64,000 nucleotides of DNA, from NCBI GenBank assembly GCA_016647705.1, contig CM028338.1, positions 35,531,176-35,595,175 of the forward strand, read 5' to 3'. The translations under genes and the position numbers were made by a program. Positions within the stretch are counted from its first letter, which is position 1. Every line of letters begins with the position of its first letter. Shown in pieces: positions 3,923-63,898 of the stretch. Origin of the DNA: Eucommia ulmoides (taxonomy: Eukaryota > Streptophyta > Magnoliopsida > Garryales > Eucommiaceae). Under the pieces are notes generated by a model that had not been told where the DNA came from, did no database searches, and saw only the letters and a list, made by a program, of their open reading frames with translations.

Positions 3923-4018
3923 ATGGGTGTTAATCATAAGTTTTGATGGACAATTAAAAGTTGATTTTTTAGTGAGAATGAATTAAAAAACGAATTTAGA
4001 AGAGGTTCCCAGCATTGA

Positions 4019-4262
4019 TAAGTCGACAAGTAAGTCGACCATGCATAGAAGGTGAAGTTGTTGAATCTCTCGGTCGACAGGTAGGTCGACCTGAACTTAA
4101 ATGGTGAACTCTCTAAATCGATAAGTCGACAAGGAGGTCGACCTGTGACCAGAAATGTAACTTTCTGAATCTCTAGATCGACAGATAGGTCGACCGATAG
4201 GTGATGGATTTTTGGCTTAGCTACATCCTGAATCGAAGACCGGTGATCCTTGGTAAGTCGAC
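4019..4262. repeat. GTCGAC-containing short tandem array inside the outer family A LTR
   Basis: Roughly 60-70-bp units each carry paired palindromic GTCGAC or near-matches about 8 bp apart, for example GTCGACAAGTAAGTCGACC, GTCGACAGGTAGGTCGACC and GTCGACAAGGAGGTCGACC. Between them are variable spacers containing GAATCTCT. The inverted inner LTR has the corresponding array near 5933-6106. Confidence 0.75.
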
Positions 4263-4466
4263 TTATGGCACTGTTTCAGGATTTTGTGGAATTTTGGATT
4301 TTATTCTAAAAGTAGCCGTTACTAACCGTTTTATGGTTAAGATTCACAAGATATATTAAGGATTTGATATTATTTGAGATATACAACATATATTATGATA
4401 TCTCTATGGATATAGTTCATTAAGTTTGAATATTTTTCAATTTGGTACAAGTAATTCTTTCTATCT

Positions 4467-6530
4467 TGTTGGCCTAGTGGAATACCCAAGAGGGGGGGTC
4501 AATTGGGTATTTAAAAATTATCAGAATAAAAACTTAAAATCAAATAATTAATTTTAAGCCTAAATTAATTATTATCTTTATATCACAACGGAATTAATTA
4601 ATCAACTAGGTGCACACCCAAATAGAAAAAATTGTAAAATAAATATTGCAGCACATCAAGATATATCCTGGTTCACCAAGCTACTCTTAGCTAGTTTAGT
4701 CCTCCGAGCTCCATGGAGATTTGCACCCACTAAAACTCAAGATCCCTTTAAAGGAATTAACCAAACACTCACACCGATTATTTTACAAGCTCATAATCAA
4801 CATTTACAATATCTTTTTTCAAAACTTAGGAATAACCTCTACTTTTTACAGGTTCAAGAATAACCTATCTTTTTACAGGTTAAAGATTAACCTAATTCTT
4901 TTTATCCCTAAGGCTCAAGAATCAAAACCTCACATAACACTCCAAATATCCTTTTACCTGGTAAGGATTGAACCATTACAAAAATTACTCAAAACGCAAT
5001 TCTATCTAGGAAGAATCACTACCTCAATCTCTTTACAAGAAGAGACTGAAACTCAACTACCCCTAATTAAATACCCTCAACAGTATTTAATCCATCACAA
5101 CTCACCAATATAAATTGATAAGCATGAAATCTCACTCGGAGCTTCTACCACTCTCGATAAATAATAACTCAATTAATATCCCAACTAGTGATAGAAAAAC
5201 GTGAGATAGAAAAATCTAATTTTAACAAGATATGGGTAACAAATTTGAGCACGTAATTAGATTCAAGAAATTGTTTGTAAAAATATTTTCTTAAAAAATC
5301 AGAAACAATTTCTAAGATCAATTTCTAAATAATAATCAAATAATGCAATGAAAGAATATAATTGGAAACCTTTCACCTGGAATCCACAGAAAGAATTATT
5401 AGAACGATGTAACTTTAAATCCAGTAGTAGCAAAAATTAACAGCAGTTGATCTTTAAGATCGTCTCTCAGAAAAACTCACAATATCTCAGAATGATGACT
5501 CTTATAATAGCTCGCAAATGATATCTCTCTTGTTTACTGCTTAATGATATATGAAATTCGCAGGTCTATTTAAAGGAGTATGAAATCAGCCTTCTAACGG
5601 CTAGTTTACAGTGTCATGACAATTAATAGCATTTATAGACTCCTTATATCATAAAGACTTCATTTAGGTTCAATTCACTTAAAAACAGCTTTCAAATCTC
5701 TCAATTAAACCCCCCAAATATTTCTTAATCTCAATAAATAAGAATAGAATCAACGTAAAGTACCAAATTGAGAAATATTAAAATTTAATGTACCAAATCA
5801 ATAAGATTTAATTAATATATGAATCATATCTTAAATATCACCAAATCCCTTAAATCTCTCTCAAATCCTAGCAAAAAATGACTTTTAGATATGATTTCGA
5901 AATCCACATGATCCTGAAACAGAGCCACTAGTCGACCGATCAGTCGACCGTTTGATTCAGGATGTAGCCTGCTGCGTCCATCGGTCGACCTATCTGTCGA
6001 CTCCTTGATTCAGAGAGTTTCATTTATTCTTACCGATCGACCTACCTGTCGACTATTAGATATAGAGAGTTCCCTTCTTGTACTCCGGTCGACTTACCTA
6101 TCGACTCACTAATGCTGAAAACTTTTCTAAATTCATTTTAAATTCTTTTTCTTTTACATTTTTGCCCCTTTAACTAATTTCTTTTCTCAATTAGCTCCAC
6201 TAAATTTTTCAAATTCCATTTTAGTCATTTAAAATTATTTCTTTTCAAATCATATATTGGAGCAAATAATTTCACTTAATCAAAACACACATAAATAATA
6301 ATAAAAAAAAAAATGTGCAATGTGTGTGTTCCTAATTAGGATATTAAGAGTTGAAATTCACCTAGATTGTTTTCCCTAATTTCTTCAATATCTTCAACAT
6401 CATGATTTAGTATCCATTTAATTTGCATCACCTTCATCACTAGAACTTAAATCATTGAAATATTCAATTAAAATATTAGTTCTACCAAAACATCAACATT
6501 TAATTGTTTATCAAAATCTTAGAATCAACA
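4467..6530 (-). mobile_element. Nested solo LTR (family A), reverse orientation
   Basis: Read on the minus strand it begins TGTTGATTCTAAGATTTTG and ends CTAGGCCAACA, the same termini as the surrounding LTR. Flanking bases TATCT (4462-4466) and TATCC (6531-6535) form a 5-bp target duplication with one mismatch. The arms 4467-5700 and 6540-7866 are extended inverted copies. For example, CTACTCTTAGCTAG near 4681 pairs with the reverse complement near 7637. No internal region or second LTR is present, so it is a second solo LTR about 2.06 kb long. Its GTCGAC array lies at about 5933-6106. Confidence 0.9.
5933..6106. repeat. GTCGAC-containing array inside the nested family A LTR
   Basis: This is the reverse-complement counterpart of the array in the outer LTR. 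It has repeated GTCGACC(T/G)A...GTCGAC pairs separated by spacers with CAGAGAGTT. The number and spacing of units differ slightly from the outer LTR. Confidence 0.7.
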
Positions 6531-7884
6531 TATCCTATTTAATTGTGATTGAGAAATATTTTGGGGACTTAATTAAGAAGTTTAAAAGCCATAATTAAGT
6601 GATTTGAACCAGGATGAAGTCTTAATGATATAAGGGGTTTATAAGAGCAATCAAATGTCATAACAAGTGGGAACTAGCCATTGGAGAGCTTGTTTTATTC
6701 TTTTTTAAATAGATCTGTGTTTTTCACTACAAAAAAAGGGTGATGAGATATCAATCATTATGAGCTATTCATCTCTCATGCTTTATAAGAGTTATCATAC
6801 TGAGAGTTTTGTGAAAATTGTCTTGAAAATCATTCTTGAGATATTGAAGAAAATTATTGTTGATCACCGATTTGAAGGTGCATTGCTAATCATTATTTAT
6901 TTGGTGGAATCCGGGTGAGATCTTTCCAAATTACTTTATATTTAGTATTGCTTGATTATATTTAGAATTTGATCTTTGAAATTGTTTTTCGATTTTTTAT
7001 TGAAAAATATTTTTGAAACAATTTCTTAAAGAAATCTAATTATGTGCTACCCAATTTTTATTTAGAATCAGATTTTGAATATCTCATTTTTCTATCACTA
7101 GTTTTGAGATATTAATTGAGTTCTAATTTATCTAGGGTGGTAGAAGCTTCGAGTGGAAAAATCATTTATCAATTATTTGTAATTGGTGAGTTGAGTGTCG
7201 TATTAGATACCACTAGGACTGTCTAATTAAGGATAGCTGGTTTCAATCTCTTCCGGTAAAGAGATTGAGGTTTTGATATTTACCTAAGGTATAAAAATAT
7301 TAGGTGTTAATTCTTCCTTGATTAAATTTGTGAGTGATTTTGTAAAGGTTCCATCCTTACCTAGGAAAATAATAGTTTGAGTGTTTTTGTAAGATTTTGA
7401 TTCTTGAACCTAAGGTATAAAAAGAATTAGGTCGTGATTTTTCTGTAATAGAATTAGGTTATTCTTGAGCCTGTAAAAAGTAGAGGTTATTCCTGAGCCT
7501 GGAAAAATGAATTTGTAAAGGTTGATTCTGAACCTATGCAAATAATCTTTGTGAGGGTTTGGTTCCTATCTTTAAAGGAATCTTGAGTTTTGTGGGTGCG
7601 AATCTCTGTGGGGCTCGGAGGACTAGATTAGTCAAGAGTAGCTTGGTGAATCAGGATATATCATGGTGTGCTGCTTTATTTATTTTACTTATATTGTTGT
7701 TTGGTGTGCACCTAATTGATAACATACATCCGCTGCTATAAAAATGATAATTAATTTTAAGATAAAATTAATTATTTAAAATTTTGAAGTGTTATTATTA
7801 TTATTCTGATAATTTTTTAATACTACTCAATTCACCCTTACTCTTGGGTAGCTCACTAGGCCAACAATGGGGGTATCTCGTATA

Positions 7885-8224
7885 TGTTGGGTCTATCCCA
7901 CTTCGGATGTGAAAGGGGTTGGTGGTCAAGTTATACGTATGAGGAAAAATCTCATCTAATGAGCTAGCTTTTGGGGTGAAAAAAGATCTAAGACAACCCT
8001 TACATTGGTATCAGAGCTCAAGTTACAACAATTCTGACTCAATAGCCACAATAGGAGACTGGTCAAGGGTTATCCAATCAAAAGCCTGATGTGTGAGGAG
8101 AAGATCGTTGGGTTTATCCCACATCGGATGCGGAAGGGCTAATGGTCAGGTTATAAGTGTGAGAGAAAGTCTTACATCATGAACTAAATTTTAGAGTTGA
8201 AAGAGGCCCAAGACCACCCTTATA
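7885..8224 (+). mobile_element. TRIM-like miniature LTR retrotransposon, plus copy
   Basis: Left LTR 7885-8004 (120 bp) starts TGTTGGGTCTATCCCAC and ends CCCTTACA. One base later comes TGGTATCAGAGC (8006-8017), the primer binding site complementary to initiator tRNA-Met. A second, similar LTR follows at about 8106-8224. It is preceded by a purine-rich tract (GTGAGGAGAAGA) that can serve as polypurine tract. The internal region is only about 100 bp and has no coding capacity, the hallmark of TRIM elements. The second LTR starts CGTTGGG, so its first base is mutated. No convincing target duplication was found. Confidence 0.75.
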
Positions 8225-8449: not shown

Positions 8450-8696
8450 GAACTGACGATATGAGATAAACCCAACAATCCCCCCTATACAGCAGATCTT
8501 TGGTCAGCTAACCATCGACCAGTTTCTCCTTTTGTGACTATTGGATCAGAGTTGTTGTAACTTAAGATTTGATACCGGTGTAGGGTGGTCTTGAGCCTCT
8601 CCTAACCCTAAAATCTAGTTCATGATATGAGATTTTTCTCACACTTATAACTTGACTATTAACCCCTTCCACATTCAATGTGGGATAAACTCAACA
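8450..8696 (-). mobile_element. TRIM-like miniature LTR retrotransposon, minus copy, 3' truncated
   Basis: Reverse-complement of the TRIM family next to it. The LTR occupies 8579-8696 (minus start TGTTGAGTTTATCCCACA, end CCACCCTACA). A degenerate primer site and an internal region of about 100 bp follow. Only the first 20-odd bases of the second LTR (TGTTGGGTTTATCTCATA, minus strand from 8476) remain. The internal region aligns with that of the plus copy, for example GTTACAACAA...CTGA.CCAATAG. Confidence 0.65.
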
Positions 8697-9018
8697 ATAT
8701 ATGAACTCAACAAAAACTATTCATCTCACAAAAATATTTTAGGCCTAATTTTTAAAGAATTAAATTTTCAATTTTTCACTGGGTTATGGAATTCAAATTA
8801 AGGAATTGAGTGCCATAGAATTATATATAAAAACCAAATCTAGGTCTAACTAATGATCTAAACAGAAGAATTGGAATTGAGCTCCTCTTTTTTTTTTTTT
8901 TTTGGTTATTCTATTCTTTTTTCTCTCTATTTTCTTATAATTTTTTATATATTTATCTCATGAATTTTATGTAGTTATTTTATAAAGTTTCAAGAGGTTT
9001 TTGATGATAGGTCGTAAT

Positions 9019-9132
9019 ATTAAGCGTAATACAATATACAACTAGTTTTCAACTTAATTTTGAATTTTACTATATTTATTTTGCACTTGCATCCCTTGTT
9101 ATTAATATCAAGCGTAATACAATATACAATTA
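9019..9132. repeat. Tandem duplication of a short AT-rich unit
   Basis: A unit of about 85 bp containing GCGTAATACAATATACAA and TAGTTTTCAACTTAATTTTG starts near 9019 and repeats from about 9103. The second copy is split by the GC-rich Harbinger-like element and continues from 9831 to about 9900. Confidence 0.6.
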
Positions 9133-9303
9133 GGTGGCGTTTGGTAACAGCAAACAGTTTCTGTTTTCATTCCAGCAGTGGGATGGGAATGGGATGGGAT
9201 GGGAATTTTGTTTTCTTTTTAGGAGTAGAATCACGTTTGGTAACGATAATTTTTTTTTTATTTTGGGAAGGGAATTGTGTTTGGTAACGATTTTATCCTA
9301 AAA

Positions 9304-9337
<34 letters not shown>

Positions 9338-9830
9338 TTTTTTTGGCCTGACGGCGGTGGCGCCGTCGCCGGACGGCCGGCGGTGCTCCGGCGACGCCTG
9401 GCCGGCGCTCCGGCAACGGCTGCCGACAGTTCTCCGGCGTCGGAGACGGCGGTGCCCCCGGCCAGCGATGACCGGACGGCGGTGGCGCCGGCGACGCCGG
9501 CCGAAAGACAATGGCGCCATCGCCGGCGACTGCCGAAAGTGGCCGGAAAATTTCCGCCCGGACGGTGACCGGTGGAGGCGGCAGTCGGTGGCCGGCGGCG
9601 GCGGGCGGTGGTCGGCCGGTAGGTGAATAGTGACCATGGGTTTTGGGAATGGAATGAGAATAATGAGAAACAACTTTTTTTTGTTTCTCATTTCTTAAAA
9701 AAAAAGTGGGCACAATTCTCAAATGGGAATGAAATGGAAACGGAAACAAAAATTACCAAACGCTATTCTCAAACAGAATTCCCAAAAATCTGGGAATGAA
9801 ATGGGATGGAAATGGTTACCAAACGGAGCC
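9133..9830. mobile_element. Harbinger/Tourist-like non-autonomous element with GC-rich core
   Basis: Terminal inverted repeats GGTGGCGTTTGGTAAC (left) and GGCTCCGTTTGGTAAC (right, reverse complement) match at 13 of 16 positions. They are flanked by the 3-bp target duplication TTA (9130-9132 and 9831-9833), as in PIF/Harbinger elements. The insertion splits a recognisable AT-rich repeat unit, which confirms the boundaries. Subterminal GGGAATGGGATGG-like motifs occur on both sides. From about 9345 to 9620 the core is extremely rich in G and C (CCGGCGACG, GCCGGCGG repeats) beside a poly-T tract. Reading frames in that core on both strands are arginine/proline/alanine-rich artefacts of composition, and no transposase is present. 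Confidence 0.8.
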
Positions 9831-9833
9831 TTA

Positions 9834-47399: not shown

Positions 47400-48333
47400 T
47401 ATAAAGAAGCTAGTACTAATCCTCTTTGGTAGAAAGCAATGGACGAAAAACTTCAGGCCCTAGCCAAAACTCATACTTGGGATATTGTTGATCTGTACCC
47501 TAGAAAAACTCCTATTAGGTGCAAATGGGTGTTTAAGATCAAGACGTTTTCTGATGGCTTTGTTGAATGATATAAAGTCTGAATTATTACCAAAGAATTT
47601 AATCAGGAATATGGCATTGACTATGAAGAGACATTTGCTCTAGTGGAGAGGCTCACATATGTTTGTACACTCATTGCCATCGCCGCCATTCGAAAATTAA
47701 CTTTTTTTTTTTTTTCCAAATGGATGTAAAAAATGCATTTCTCAATGAAGATTTTCTTGATGAAGTCTATATGCATACTGTTCTTGGTCTGGATGCCCCT
47801 CAAAATAAAGTTTGTCGCATTCGCTATGCCTTATAAGGTTTGAAACAAGCTCCATGTGCCTAGTTCGCCAAATTTAGCACTACGATTCATCAGTTTGGGT
47901 TCACACCTAGTGCTCATGATTCGACTCTGTTTATTCGCCATAATGCCAACGGTATTATCCTTATCTTATTGTACATGGATGACATAGTTATTACTGGAGA
48001 TAATCTACGTGGTATTTCTAAACTCAAAAAGTTTCTCATTTGAGATGAAAGATCTTGGCATGCTCATTTATTTTCTTGGCCTCAAAGTCTTATCTGGTTC
48101 TAATGGATATTTTCTCTCTCAGGCCAAAAAGTTTCTCATTTGAGATGAATGATCTTGGCATGCTCATCTATTTTCTTGGCCTCGAAGTCTCATCTGGTTC
48201 TAATAGATATTTTCTCTCTCAAACCAAATATACCTTGGATCTCTTTTCTAAGGCTGGGATCACTGACTCAACCACTGCCACTACTCATCTCGAGCTGAAC
48301 GTCAGACTTAAAGTGAGATCTTTGGTGTATTAA
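47400..48333 (+). pseudogene. Copia reverse transcriptase fragment with internal tandem duplication
   Basis: Recognisable blocks are KAMDEKLQALAKTHTWDIVDL, CKWVFKIKTFSDG, YGIDYEETFALV, MDVKNAFLNEDFLDEVYM and FIRHNANGIILILLYMDDIVITGD (YMDD active site intact near 47971). A poly-T stretch at 47701-47715 disrupts the frame before MDVKNAF. A 100-bp tandem duplication (48026-48125 and 48126-48225) shifts the frame again. Homology ends near SKAGITDSTTATTHLE. Confidence 0.82.
48026..48225 (+). repeat. 100-bp tandem duplication inside copia reverse transcriptase
   Basis: AAAAAGTTTCTCATTTGAGA starts both units, exactly 100 bp apart. The two copies differ by a handful of substitutions. Because 100 is not a multiple of three, the second copy is out of frame with the first. 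Confidence 0.92.
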
Positions 48334-53882: not shown

Positions 53883-56008
53883 TGTAGACACGACATTTTG
53901 ACTGTCTCGCAAAATTTTTTATGCTTTATTTTAAAAATATATTTTATTTTTATTTTCAAAAAAAAAAAAAAATAGAGAAAAAAGAAAAGAAAAAATGAAA
54001 AAAGAAAAGAAAAAAAACTGAAAAAAAAATATAGAAAATAAAAGGTTTCCTTGTCAAAATAGGATTAAGTTTTCTTTTCCTTTTCCTTTTAGATTTTGTT
54101 TTATTTTCCTCGTCGAATTGGGACTAGGGTTACCTAGGGTTTCTAGGATTTTTCACTCCACATCCTTCCTATAAATAAGACCATCATCCTCATAATTTAG
54201 ACACACAAAAATTCAGAGAAAAACCCTTCAAGAAGATTCAAAAATTGACAGAAAAAACCCTTAGAGAGTAATTCTCATCGTAAACCCTTTCGGGAAGCTG
54301 TCTACGCGAGAGAAAAGCCCGAGCATCGGGATTTTTTGGCCTAGAACAGGTATGTTTTCTGATTTTAATTATTTTTTCAGCTTTATTTTATCATCTTTGC
54401 AATTCAAATTATTGTAAGTTTTATTTATTTAATTGTCTGATGACTCAATGAAAAACGCCGGGATGAGGTTCCCTATTCTCAATCTGAACATTTGAGCGTT
54501 TAGACGAGGACACTATCTCGCTGTAGTTTTTTTATTTTCTATATTTTTTTATTTTTTATTTTATTTTTCTTATAAATTCATAAAAAAAAAAAAACTCAAA
54601 AAAAAAAAATAAGTCATCCGATGATCTGATGAAAATTTCGGGATGGGTTTCTCGTGCTTAAACTTAATTCCCGAACGTTAGGTGAAAGATATTTCATTGT
54701 TTATTTCTTGTATTTTTTTATTTTATTTTATTTTATTTTTTTATTTTTATTCTTGTTATCAAAATCCTAAAAAAAAAAAAACTAAAAAAACTAAATAATC
54801 CAAAAATAATAAAATCTTTGTTTGTAGGAATTAATCTTTTCGAACCTTAAGGTGAATCCGACGTTTTGATAAATCGTGGGAGAATTTTCCGTGGCTTCAT
54901 TTGCATTCTCCGACTCGAGTGGAATTTAGAAACAAATATTTTTTAAGAAATCTCTTCCCTCGATAAATTTTTCGTGGGATTTCTTTTAAGTATCGAAAAG
55001 ATTAATTTTAACTAAATTGTTTTCACAAACCTCCCTTGATTCTCTTATCTATAGAATTTGAGGAAATTTCAAAATTGAATTTCTTTAAATTAATCAGGCA
55101 AACTCAAAGTAGACTTTTTTTGCATCCACTTAGCATGTTTATTTCTCATATCATTTAGACGGCATGTTTAGGACACTTTCACCACTTATACTTTTCATAC
55201 ATATAGTTTTTATTTATTTATTTATTTTCACGAATCCATGTTATTTTTTCATATCTAGTCACGACACGTGCACCACTTACGTTTTTTGTTATAATTAAAT
55301 CATTATCACATATAATTAGGTTAATTCACGTAGTATTTATATCAATTTGCATTGACACATTTAAATTAAACCATTTAGTTCTTTTTTGGTCATTTTTGCA
55401 TATAAAATAAAATTCATATAATCTTAGTTTTTGCATTCATATTTCCATATTTATTCACTTATTTTATTTTGCCCATTTAAAGTAAAGAAATATTTAGAAA
55501 ACATATATAAATATCCCCCGGGGACCATCCTTATCGAATCTTTAATATTCTATAAGAGGTTATACTGGGGGAACATTCCAAAAAATCTAAAAACTTGTCC
55601 CACATTATTTGTGAAAATACCAAAAAGATTTTATAAGAAGGGAATGATTTCAAAATAAAATAAAACACTTGAACTAAACTAATTGGACTTAATTGGACAT
55701 AAAGTACCATTTTCGGACGAACGTCTTGGGGCGCCTAACACCTTCCTTGAGCGTAACCGACTCCCGAGCCTTTAAATGAATATTTGGTTTGACCGTGTTT
55801 TTTTGGAGTCAATTTTTTACTTAGACCTTTTAAATTGTTTTCTAAAATTTCGGTGACCTAGCACACTATTTAAACCTAATACTAGGTGATGTCTCCTTAT
55901 TTTTTAAAACGATCTAAGTATATTTTTTAAGGAAATTGGCACTTTAAAAAATTCCTCTCCTTAAGCTTAATTTATTATTTAATATTCTTTTTCTCTTGGA
56001 AAAATGGG
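53883..56008 (+). repeat. 5' LTR of the non-autonomous element
   Basis: Begins TGTAGACACGACATTTTGAC. TATAAATA lies at 54170-54177, and the motifs CCCGAGCATCGGG (54318-54330), CCGATGA and CCCCCGGGG occur downstream. The 3' end is slightly shorter than in LTR2. LTR2 ends GGGGGGCGTCA, but here GGGG runs straight into CAACTCCGC, suggesting a small deletion at the LTR/primer-site junction. A 75-residue open frame (55431-55658) is co-linear with one in LTR2 but shows no sign of being a gene. Confidence 0.88.
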
Positions 56009-56572
56009 GCAACTCCGCTGGGGAGAATTAGAGGGTCAAGCCTAATATGTCCAAATAAGTCCAACTATTCCATGTCCAAATATTATATTTTATTTTGTTA
56101 TCTTTTCCTTCTATTTTTTTAAATAAGTTATGGTGTTGGTTCCTTTTCTTCTTTTCTTTCTTTTTTATCGGGCTTTTGTATTGCTGTAAACCCTCCGACA
56201 TGAGTATGGCCTTCTTGTATCCATATTATCCCAACAGGATTCTATGAATACAAGGTGTGTAAAAGGGTTTTACTTGATAAATTGATGATATCTTTGGAAG
56301 TTTTAAAAACCAAACAGCTTCAAAGTTTCCAATACCAATTAAGTAAAGAAAAAAAAATCATAAATTATTATCTGTTTTGATCAGCCATTATCGGAATTGA
56401 AAACTTCGAACTCGAATGGATTTTAAGACTATCTAAGACCCACGTGGACTAATAAATGGGCTTCTTGTAAGAATAGAACAAGACAGAAAAAATTGGTCCC
56501 AGAAAAGCAATTCTGGTTCCCCCCATCCAAAGTTCAGTCTTTACTCGCAGTCGGGCCGAAACTCATTCTAGG

Positions 56573-59331: not shown

Positions 59332-61428
59332 TGTATATACGACATTTTAACTGTCCCGCAATTTTTTTTTTGCTTTATTTTAAAATTTATTTTATTTTTA
59401 TTTTAAAAAAAAAATAGAGAAAAAAGAAAAAGAAAAAATGAAAAAAGAAAAGAAAGATTAAAGAAAAAAAGAAAAAAAAAACTGAAAAAAAAAATGGAAA
59501 AAAAAATGTTTCCTTGTTAAAATGGGATTATGTTTCATTTTCCTTTTCTTTTTAGATTTTGTTTTGTTTTCTTTTCCTCGTCAAATTGGGACTAGGGTTT
59601 TCTAGGGTTTCTAGGATTTTTCACTCCACATCCTTTCTATAAATAAGACCATCCTCCTCATAATTTAGACACAAATATTCAGAGAGAAACTCTTCGGGGA
59701 GATTCAGAAATTGAGAGAAAAATTCTTTAGAGAGTGATTCTCATCGTAAACCCTTTCGGGAAACTGTCTGCGCGAGAGAAAAATTCAAGCATTGGGATTT
59801 TTTGGCTTAGAACAGATATATTTTCTAATTTTAATTCTTTTTTCAGTTTTATTTTATTATCTTTGCAATTCCTGCAAGTTTTATTTATTTAATTGTCCGA
59901 TGACTCGATAAAAAACGCTGGAATGAGGTTCCTTATTCTCAATGTGAACCTTTGAGCATTTAGACGAGGACACCATCTCGCTGTATTTTTTTTATTTTCT
60001 GTACTTTTTATTTTATTTTTCTTATAAATTCATTAAAAAAAAAAATAAGTCATCCGATGAAAACTTCGGGGTGGATTTCTCGTGCTTAAACTTAATCTCC
60101 GAACGTTAGGTGAAGGATATTTAATTGTTTATTTCCTGTATTTTTTTATTTTTATTCTTGTTATCAAAATCCTAAAAATAAAAAAACTAAAACAAAAAAA
60201 ATCCAAAAATAATAAAATCTTTGTTTGTAGGAATTAATTTTTACGAACCTTAAGGCGAATCTGACGTTTTGATAAATCGTGGGAGAATTTTCTGTGGCTT
60301 CGTTTGCATTCCCCGACTCAAGTGGAATTTAGAAATGAATGTTTTTTAGGAAATCTCTTCCCTTGGTAAATTTTTGTGGGATTTCTTTTAAGTATCGAAA
60401 AGATTAATTTCAACTAAATTGTTTCCGTGAACCTCCCTCGATTCTCTTATCCATAAAATTTGAGAGAATTTTAAAATGAGATTTCTTTAAATTAATCAGG
60501 CAAACTCAAAGTAGACTTTTTTTTGCATCCACTTAGCATGTTTATTTCTCGTATCATTTAGACGGCATGTTTATGACACTTTCACCACTTATATTTTTCA
60601 TACATATATATATATATATTTTTATTTATTTTTTATTTTTTGACGAATCCGTATTACTTTTTCATATTTAGTCACGACATGTGCACCACTTACGTTTTTT
60701 GTTATAGTTAAATTATTGTCACATATAATTAGGTTAATTCAAGTAGTATTCATATCAGTTTGCATTGACATATTTAAATTAAACCATTTAGTTCTTTTTT
60801 GGTTATTTTTGCATATAAAATAAAATTCATATAATCTTAGTTTTTGCATTCATATTTTCATATTTATTCACTTATTTTATTTTGCCCATTTAAAGTAAAG
60901 AAACCTTTAGAAAACATATATAAATATCCCCCGGAGACCATCCTTATCGAATCTTTAATATTCGATAAGAGGTTATACCGGAGGAATATTCCAAAAAATC
61001 CAAAAACTTGCCCCACCTTATTTATGAAAATACCAAGAAGATTTTATAAGAAGAGAATGATTTCAAAATAAAATAAAACACTCGAACTAAGCTAATTGGA
61101 CTTAATTAGACATAAGGTACCGTTTTCGGATGGGCGTCTTGGGGTGCCTAACACCTTCCCAGAGCGTAACCGATTCCTGAGCCTTTAAATGAATCTTTGG
61201 TTTGACCATATTTTTTTGGAGTCAATTTTTTACTTAGGCCTTTTAAATTGTTTTCTAAAAATTCGATGACCTAGCACACCATTTAAATTCAATGCTAGGT
61301 AACAACTCCTTATTTTTTAAAACGACCTAAATATATTGTTTTGGGGAAATCGGCACTTTAAAAAACCCCTCCTTAAGCTTAATTTATTATTTAATATTAT
61401 TTTCCTCTTGGAAAAATGGGGGGCGTCA
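59332..61428 (+). repeat. 3' LTR of the non-autonomous element
   Basis: Begins TGTATATACGACATTTTAAC and ends GGGGGGCGTCA just before the target duplication ATTAA. TATAAATA at 59638-59645. It is co-linear with LTR1 apart from many substitutions and small indels. Confidence 0.9.
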
Positions 61429-61433
61429 ATTAA

Positions 61434-63898
61434 TTTTTGATATTTTTATGGGACTAATGATTTTACTGAGTGGTTTTAGATTTATAGTTCCATGTAACGT
61501 GTTTGAGAAGAGAAATCATTATAGAAAATATAAAGGGTACAAGATAAAAATGATGAAGACAAGAAGAGTTTTGAAGACATTGAAGACAACTAGGTGAAAA
61601 CAACTATTTACCTAGATATTCTTAATGCAACCCGAATTAGGATCATGCACGACACTTAAAATGAATTAATTTTATGTGTGTTAGTAAGAAACGATAAGTT
61701 TAAGATCTTAATATGTGAATTATTATGTGTTCCATATGCGAAATGATTTTCATAATTGACCCTACCAAAAAATGTGTTTTAAAGTATAAAATATTGTGTT
61801 TTTAGGTCAATTCGGTCAATCAGCATAAGGGGTTGGTCGACTTATTAAAATAGTGAGTTTTGCAGTTAAAATGGAGTCCTACTAATCTAATCGGTTAACC
61901 GAGAAAATAAATCGGTTAACCATTTGAAACAATGACTAAAATGGATAAGAAATAGACGAAATGGTGATCAACCGATAGGTTAGGGGTCGATCAACCGTTT
62001 GATTCAGTGGATGAAATAGACGAAATGGTGAAACCCGTTGCTTGAGTCGGTCAACCAACTAGGTGGGGGTAAAGTGCTAATGGCTAAAAGCATCCTGGCA
62101 CTATGTGGTCGACCGAATGGAATGGGTCGGTCAATCAATTGCTCCAGCCTACAATTTGGCTGATTTCGTCTCTTGGTCCAATCATCTCGGTTTTGATGAT
62201 TCCAAGAGAGGTTTTTAAGGAATTTGGGTCTACTTTCTATTTTGATGGATTTTGATTTAAAAATGTTTTAATGATCAAAATGAGATTTTCCAAAAAATAT
62301 TTTTAAATGAAAAAGATCTATTTTGAACATATATGATATATGGGGTCTTGGGGGTGTGATTTAATGATATGTTATTTGAAAAGTAGTCCTTATAAGATAT
62401 ATTTGAAATACCTATTATTAAACCTACGAATTTTGAATATTGCTATATTTGTGGAGAATATTTAAGGTTAAAGATATGAGAGAGATTTATAGGATTTTAT
62501 TTGACCTTACGATTTAGTCCATATACTTAAATATAATTCTTTCTATATTTTCATTGACTATGATCAAATTATTTTTAGAACTAAATTGAGAATTTTAAAA
62601 GTTATATTGTTGGTCAAATATCACCGTTATGAATCTATATGATATATAGAGTCCATATGTGTCATTTATTGACATAATATTTGAAAACTGGCTGTTGGAG
62701 GGGCTTGATATTTGTCATTTAATATAGACCTGCAGGAATTAAGATCAACATATCAAGAACAATCAGTTTAAGCTATTCTAAGAGTTATATTTACATTGAG
62801 ATTTTTAAGAGAGATTTATTCTATGTTCTTGATCTAAAGCGCTTGAGGTTTGGCGTCACTGACTTGTATTCTTTTGCGATACTATCATTATCTTCGATGT
62901 TTCCCAGTGAGATCTTTCCAAGCTTTATTATTTACTTTGAATTTATATTTTTATTAATTGCTTAGTATAAGATTGTTTAGAAAAACGTTTTAAACTTAAA
63001 AGCCTGAAAAACTATTTTAAATGATTTTATTTGATTATCTAATTACGTGCTTAAATTGTGCTACCCATATTATTTATTAATTAAATTTTATTTGCCTCAC
63101 ATTATATCTATCATGTAGTAATTATTCGGGACATTAATCGAGTATATTTGTATTGAAGTGGTAGAAGCTCTTTATGGGAAGAAACTTACATTTTTTATAT
63201 TTGTGAGTTTGAGCGAGTAGACACATTTGGGATGATGCCTAGTTAGGGTAGCTAGGTTTCAATATTTTTCTTGTGAAAAAATTAGGGTTCGATCTTTGTC
63301 CTGTTAAAAATGTTTGGTTACTCTTTTCCCTTGAAAAGAATTAGGTTTTGATTCTCCCTGCAATAGAATTGAGTGATTGTAAAGGTTCTTCCTAAACTTG
63401 AGAAAATGATAAGTGTAAAAGTGTGAAAGAGCGGTAGGTTTGATCTTTAGCCTGTTAAAAGGATTAAGTTTTGATTCTTCTTGAAATAAAATTAGGTTAG
63501 TCTTGAGCCTGGTAAAAAGACAAGGTTCAAACTGATCCTAGGATAATTGTATTGATTCTGAACCTGTGAAAATAATCGAGATTATAAGGGTTTGGTTCCT
63601 ACTTGGGAAAGGAATCGGGGGTTTAGTGGACTGCGAATCTCCGTGGAGCTTGAGGGAGTGGACAAAGGCAAGACTAGCTTAACCAAACCTTTTTATATCG
63701 TTGTGTGCTGCATTGTTTATTTTCTATTATATTGTGTTTGGGTGTGCACTTAGTATTAAACATATATCCGCTGCGTGACTAAGATAGTAATTAATTTAGA
63801 AAACTTCATTATTTAAAATTAAGTGTTTAAATGAATGAATTGTTTAAATTTTGTAACTATCTAATTCACCCCCTCTTGGGTAGCTCTTTGGGCCAACA
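61434..63898 (+). mobile_element. Rest of the family A 5' LTR of an LTR retrotransposon running off the window
   Basis: Continues the LTR that starts at 53852. It shares with the solo LTRs the (C/T)GGTTTCAATCT...GATTGTAAAGGTT segments, GGTTTGGTTCCTA, GCGAATCTCCGTGG(A/G)GCT, and the end CCCTCTTGGGTAGCTCTTTGGGCCAACA. Between 61800 and 62150 it has GGTCGAC/GGTTAACC/GGTCAACC repeats corresponding to the GTCGAC arrays. It is followed by a primer binding site, so it is the 5' LTR of an element whose body lies outside the window. Confidence 0.88.

Follow-up and report, generated by a model that had tools for sequence, protein, structure and literature searches.

How did two LTRs of opposite orientation come to lie one inside the other, and could such an arrangement act on the family from which they derive? 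These questions are raised by positions 3923 to 7871 of the window, i.e. the whole stretch of 64,000 nucleotides of Eucommia ulmoides DNA (contig CM028338.1) that was analysed. We found that the nest is real and well resolved, and that it looks like a commonplace remnant left by an abundant Sirevirus family. It clearly illustrates how retrotransposons turn over, from insertion through nesting to solo LTRs, in a place where every flank can still be read.

Architecture of the nest

The features of the locus, in window positions, are the following:

3923..3927, no strand: left TSD of the outer LTR, ATGGG (boundaries read and checked with a script)
3928..4466, plus strand: left part of the outer solo LTR (U3 carrying GTCGAC boxes, some 360 bp being absent near 3975)
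4022..4195, plus strand: 52-bp tandem units of the outer U3, with GTCGAC / GGTCGACC boxes that resemble the Sirevirus repeat motif (motif list in PMC2829016)
4462..4466, no strand: left TSD of the inner LTR, TATCT
4467..6530, minus strand: inner solo LTR of 2064 bp, in opposite orientation to the outer one
5566..5574, minus strand: TATA-like box of the inner LTR, directed leftward
5982..6111, minus strand: 52-bp tandem units of the inner U3, with GTCGAC boxes
6531..6535, no strand: right TSD of the inner LTR, TATCC, with one mismatch to TATCT
6536..7866, plus strand: right part of the outer solo LTR (TATA-like box inside; 3' end GGCCAACA)
6704..6712, plus strand: TATA-like box of the outer LTR, directed rightward
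7867..7871, no strand: right TSD of the outer LTR, ATGGG

The outer LTR, spliced from 3928-4466 and 6536-7866, measures 1870 bp, begins with TGTTAATC and ends with GGCCAACA. It is bordered by ATGGG on both sides, and the script check placed its boundaries exactly to the base, in agreement with the first-pass annotation. The positions proposed there for the flanks of the inner LTR are equally exact; the duplication itself is imperfect, one base differing between TATCT and TATCC. The TG..CA termini of the two LTRs, in opposite orientation, were also read exactly as described before. A solo LTR is usually recognized by complete ends together with flanking duplications; the outer and the inner LTR each consist of a complete TG..CA LTR with a 5-bp duplication and without an internal region. 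These ends and flanking duplications support the proposal that two elements inserted in opposite orientation and that both survive as solo LTRs. An Rfam search at the gathering threshold and a tRNA search each returned 0 matches, as did a scan of viral contigs for the LTR-end pattern.

The inverted homology, whose absence the first-pass annotation named as a refutation, is present in the self comparison, where it forms two blocks: 4073-4448 corresponds to 5760-6105 (69.6% identity over 378 columns) and 4466-5743 to 7867-6533 (72.9% over 1366 columns), so that the homologous blocks are ordered A-B-A'-B' along the nest. Alignment of the inner LTR with the spliced outer one gave 71.9% identity over 1759 columns (E 0.0), spanning positions 1-1725 of 1870 of the reverse-complemented outer LTR and 4467-6105 of the window. 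The outer LTR is devoid of the approximately 360 bp that should follow its first 50 bp (reference positions 50-411 are unmatched). Once the inner site is closed by removal of the insert and one 5-bp copy, the outer LTR aligns unbroken across the junction to the LTR of another copy, L012 (86.4%, 1213 columns).

Family and divergence of the two LTRs

The genome (946.67 Mb) was searched with the right part of the outer LTR, and the best 40 of 17411 candidates were scored. Among these, the 39 other main matches are 83-89% identical to the query, and two secondary matches reach 86% and 70%; in the corresponding search with the inner LTR (best 40 of 21763 candidates) the closest match besides itself is 88% identical. 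The ends of all 39 other main outer-type copies were inspected. Ten of these sister LTRs are followed by a PBS-like junction (at most 4 mismatches from ATTGGTATCAGAGC), and 7 of the 39 are preceded by a PPT-like tract (at most 3 mismatches from AGGGGGAGAT), which is exact in two of them, L016 and L040. The window solo LTRs having no internal region, it is the sister copies that display the Sirevirus junction between the 5' LTR and the internal region (CA/ATTGG, then TATCAGAGC) and the Sirevirus PPT (AGGGGGAG plus AT) directly before the 3' LTR; both match the PBS junction and polypurine tract given in PMC2829016. Just inside the 5' LTR of one sister copy (L048), a copia-type gag domain (PF14223, E 1.8e-20) and a zinc knuckle (E 0.00011) were detected, in 2 of 4 frame pieces.

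Fourteen of the 39 copies have flanks that read as solo, 6 of them matching at 5/5 bases and 8 at 4/5; the rule applied (a match at 4 or 5 of 5 bases) would be satisfied by chance in about 1.6% of random 5-mer pairs (16 of 1024). Among these, L019 is doubtful, since another LTR piece follows on its 3' side and L022, located 6 kb off, also ends AACCT. The remaining 8 of the 39 comprise 3 with both ends but unmatched flanks and 5 that miss an end within the fetched stretch.

Other family marks are visible in the window itself. The palindrome GTCGAC occurs at 8 places in the outer LTR (positions 95-330 of 1870) and at 6 in the inner LTR (438-595 of 2064), upstream of the TATA-like box, as in Sireviruses. 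According to PMC2829016, 13 of 21 elements have many palindromic repeat boxes before the TATA box, within the upper half of the LTR; 12 of these 13 have a CGG-CCG box core, and the box of a Vitis Sirevirus is CGGTCGACCG. This exact ten-base box was found 0 times in the outer and 0 times in the inner LTR; sequences within 2 mismatches of it occur at 4 and 5 places, respectively (50 shuffles gave 0.1 and 0.06 on average), and at least one exact box is present in 5 of 43 sister rows. At the TATA-like column, TAWAWA lies nearby in 43 of 45 rows, the exceptions being L036 and L040. A C-rich stretch near the LTR end was recognized by eye in the outer (CACCCTTACTCTTGGG), the inner (GACCCCCCCTCTTGGG) and a third window LTR (CACCCCCTCTTGGG); it is a candidate for the C-rich integrase signal that Sireviruses have about 21 bp from the end of the LTR.

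The likeness to Sireviruses, e.g. that of Vitis described in PMC2829016, extends in the sister copies to the PBS junction, the PPT with its AT/TG border and the copia-type gag, and in the window LTRs to the GTCGAC boxes before the TATA-like box, the apparent C-rich stretch near the LTR end and an LTR length above 1 kb. The window copies differ in being solo (one of them shortened) and in lacking the exact ten-base box, and the LTRs described here are longer, at about 2.1-2.3 kb, than the average of 1.28 kb given there for Sireviruses. Both LTRs are very probably old members of one abundant Sirevirus (Ty1/copia) family. Since the third window LTR and the sister junctions fix the sense, the outer LTR reads on the plus strand and the inner one on the minus strand.

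This third LTR, a more divergent Sirevirus 5' LTR, is situated at the right edge of the window (about 61815-63898, the left end being approximate). It ends CAACA, running into the PBS ATTGGTATTAGAGC at 63898, and its boxes partly read GGTTAACC instead of GGTCGACC.

The earlier description of the inner and outer LTRs as members of the same family holds, but they are far from being near copies and represent separate subfamilies, about 28% apart and placed on different branches of the tree. In this tree (unrooted; 20 of 47 LTR rows) the inner LTR groups with L049-L052 (100/100), the outer one falls outside that group, and the third window LTR forms a flagged long branch. The K80 distance between inner and outer is 0.324, whereas the distances to the nearest of the rows compared are 0.115 (outer) and 0.111 (inner), and five presumed LTR pairs, assigned by position, differ by 0.077-0.114 (L019/L022 and L026/L027 being the least certain pairs). 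Given these values, the two lineages probably separated well before either insertion, and neither LTR looks young.

Inverted nests in the genome and their possible silencing role

Similar nests were identified elsewhere. In L009 a minus LTR (flanks GTGAG/ATGAG) is enclosed by a plus LTR; the reverse is found in L051, where a plus LTR (flanks ATAAC/ATAAC) is enclosed by a minus LTR. Their closed sites align across the junction to a family LTR at 74.9% (933 columns) and 69.4% (893 columns), respectively. The insertion positions in the host LTR differ (reference position ~906 in the window, 1468 in L009 and 2060 in L051), so that the element does not carry the inversion as a constant feature. The other refutation named in the first-pass annotation, family members with this inversion as a natural part of their structure, is thereby answered in favour of nesting. 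Three other loci (L049, L050 and L052) are 3' LTRs, with a PPT-like sequence upstream (by eye), that adjoin an inverted LTR; each offers one junction, and they were excluded from the solo nests. A composite mobile unit is disfavoured, since in L009, L049, L050, L051 and L052 the inverted partner sits at host positions different from that of the window nest. Like nested solo LTRs of plant genomes, the locus is a clean LTR-in-LTR insertion with flanking duplications (as are L009 and L051 in the present genome); it differs from them in its particular subfamilies and position only.

In a random sample of 20 stretches of 4 kb, LTRs of the wider family cover 3716 of 80000 bases and occur in 4 of the 20. 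Forty picks were drawn on 15 contigs (809 of 947 Mb, with contig 9 and all beyond 16 excluded), and the opening 4 kb of each of the first 20 made up the sample. The resulting density gives an order of magnitude only and applies to a wider family, to which the divergent third LTR and the L009 host also belong; most of the covered bases come from two stretches, one of which matches over much of its length the third LTR better than the outer or inner one. Taken literally, the density implies that about 1 in 20 new insertions would hit such an LTR, half of them inverted, and nests should therefore be frequent. A bias toward inverted nests is not established, because one direct nest was read from the match table (C5:45297860), because L064 looks like another and because L049-L052 were chosen for an inverted neighbour in the match table and constitute no frequency sample. 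L064, a random 4-kb stretch, contains an apparent direct LTR-in-LTR nest and, next to it in tail-to-tail arrangement, a further member of the wider family.

It is very unlikely, in our estimation, that inverted nests form a recurrent class which survives because recombination tends to delete direct nests, and that a few of them, when read through externally, feed small RNAs back on the family. As a class, the inverted nests of an abundant family would be good material for testing the production of silencing RNAs, which PMC11624286 proposes; the single window locus adds little alone.

The hairpin proposed by the first-pass annotation, with arms of more than 1.2 kb, is predicted to fold strongly: for a transcript of 3928-7866 the MFE is -1440 kcal/mol, and 1035 pairs join 4467-5740 to 6536-7866. 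The pairing involves B and B' only, not the full LTR lengths. No A-A' pairs occur in the predicted fold, and the block order A-B-A'-B' makes A and A' unable to pair alongside B and B' without a knot. The predicted fold of 4467-7866 reaches -1305, compared with -663 to -681 when the right arm is shuffled (4 shuffles). The two TATA-like boxes lie in the arms and point outward (outer, 6704-6712 on the plus strand; inner, 5574-5566 on the minus strand), away from the loop and each into its own arm, so neither LTR's own candidate promoter would be expected to read both arms, and both would probably give the sense strand. Hairpin RNA would then need transcription starting outside the nest.

That antisense nested copies may trigger silencing is already a known hypothesis. 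PMC11624286 describes a silenced Arabidopsis line with a single EVD copy nested in antisense and raises LTR hairpins as a possible trigger, and PMC10760457 describes Mu killer of maize and an excess of small RNAs at Sirevirus palindromes. The window locus resembles both systems in having close inverted copies of one element, with a hairpin possible in principle. It differs from them in consisting of two old solo LTRs, about 28% apart and with outward TATA-like boxes, whereas EVD is a newly moving element and Mu killer is a truncated inverted MuDR copy. If the locus acted as Mu killer does, external read-through over both arms would yield a hairpin diced to 21-24-nt RNAs, and these would silence the family in trans. 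The strong predicted fold would favour this, as would its longest perfect stems (43, 41 and 29 pairs) and the proportion of 21-nt windows that are fully paired (81/1359) or have at least 19 paired positions (432/1359). We nevertheless regard it as highly unlikely: the arms are about 72-73% alike, only 5 of the 1311 21-mers and 2 of the 1308 24-mers of the outer right arm recur without mismatch in the inner LTR, both TATA-like boxes are directed away from the loop, and the similar inverted nests elsewhere leave the window locus with no special standing. Moreover, PMC11624286 states that siRNA production from its own nested copy was left untested. The view of the nest as a probable origin of small RNAs that silence the family as a whole is not supported: few 21-mers are shared, the TATA-like boxes point outward, and similar nests exist elsewhere.

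Insertion history and neighbouring features

The locus is very probably the product of sequential insertion of two Sirevirus-family elements, each reduced to a solo LTR, and now most likely an inert relic; the ends, the flanking duplications, the collinearity of the closed site, the family marks of the sister copies and the recurrence of nests were all directly observed. The outer insertion was the earlier one, since the inner LTR is nested within it. In the proposed sequence of events, the outer element would have inserted on the plus strand, duplicating ATGGG, and a member of a different subfamily would then have entered its LTR on the minus strand, duplicating TATCT/TATCC. Each element would have been cut down to one LTR, most simply via its own LTR-LTR recombination, and the outer LTR would additionally have lost about 360 bp of U3. 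The sequence is compatible with either order of the outer element's collapse to a solo LTR and the arrival of the inner one.

Recombination would be unneeded in one or both cases if the inner copy had arrived as a single LTR, or if the outer one were the broken end of a larger element. As the internal sequence is gone, recombination cannot be observed directly, which leaves room for this view; we consider it extremely improbable, because both LTRs have complete ends and flanking duplications, solo LTRs are frequent among the relatives of the outer one (14/39, one doubtful), and the sequence to its right is ATGGGGGTATCTCG, not a Sirevirus PBS. An artefact of assembly or rearrangement (a local inversion or a repeat mis-join) is next to impossible: repeats are prone to mis-joins, but a mis-join would not be expected to leave two pairs of flanking duplications, or a closed site that is collinear with a family LTR, and the difference of about 28% between the arms makes collapse unlikely.

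Several other repeats occur in the window. The outer LTR is adjoined by a TRIM-like element (7885-8224) composed of an LTR of about 117 bp, then TTGGTATCAGAGC, and, some 105 bp further along, a second LTR-like copy (limits set by eye); an inverted related copy is located at 8457-8704. A repeat of about 700 bp is present at 9130-9833 of the window, at 6690-7392 of L009 and at 2682-3334 of L060, the L009 copy being 81% identical to each of the others. It has inverted ends (GGTGGCGTTTGGTAAC / GTTACCAAACGG), with TTA at both flanks in L009 and in the window, and looks like a DNA transposon of PIF/Harbinger-like type. Further to the right, a tandem duplication of about 100 bp (48020-48228) lies in a stretch that, by eye, resembles a copia reverse transcriptase, and 53883-56009 and 59332-61421 form a direct repeat whose copies, each about 2.1 kb long, share 86.7% identity.
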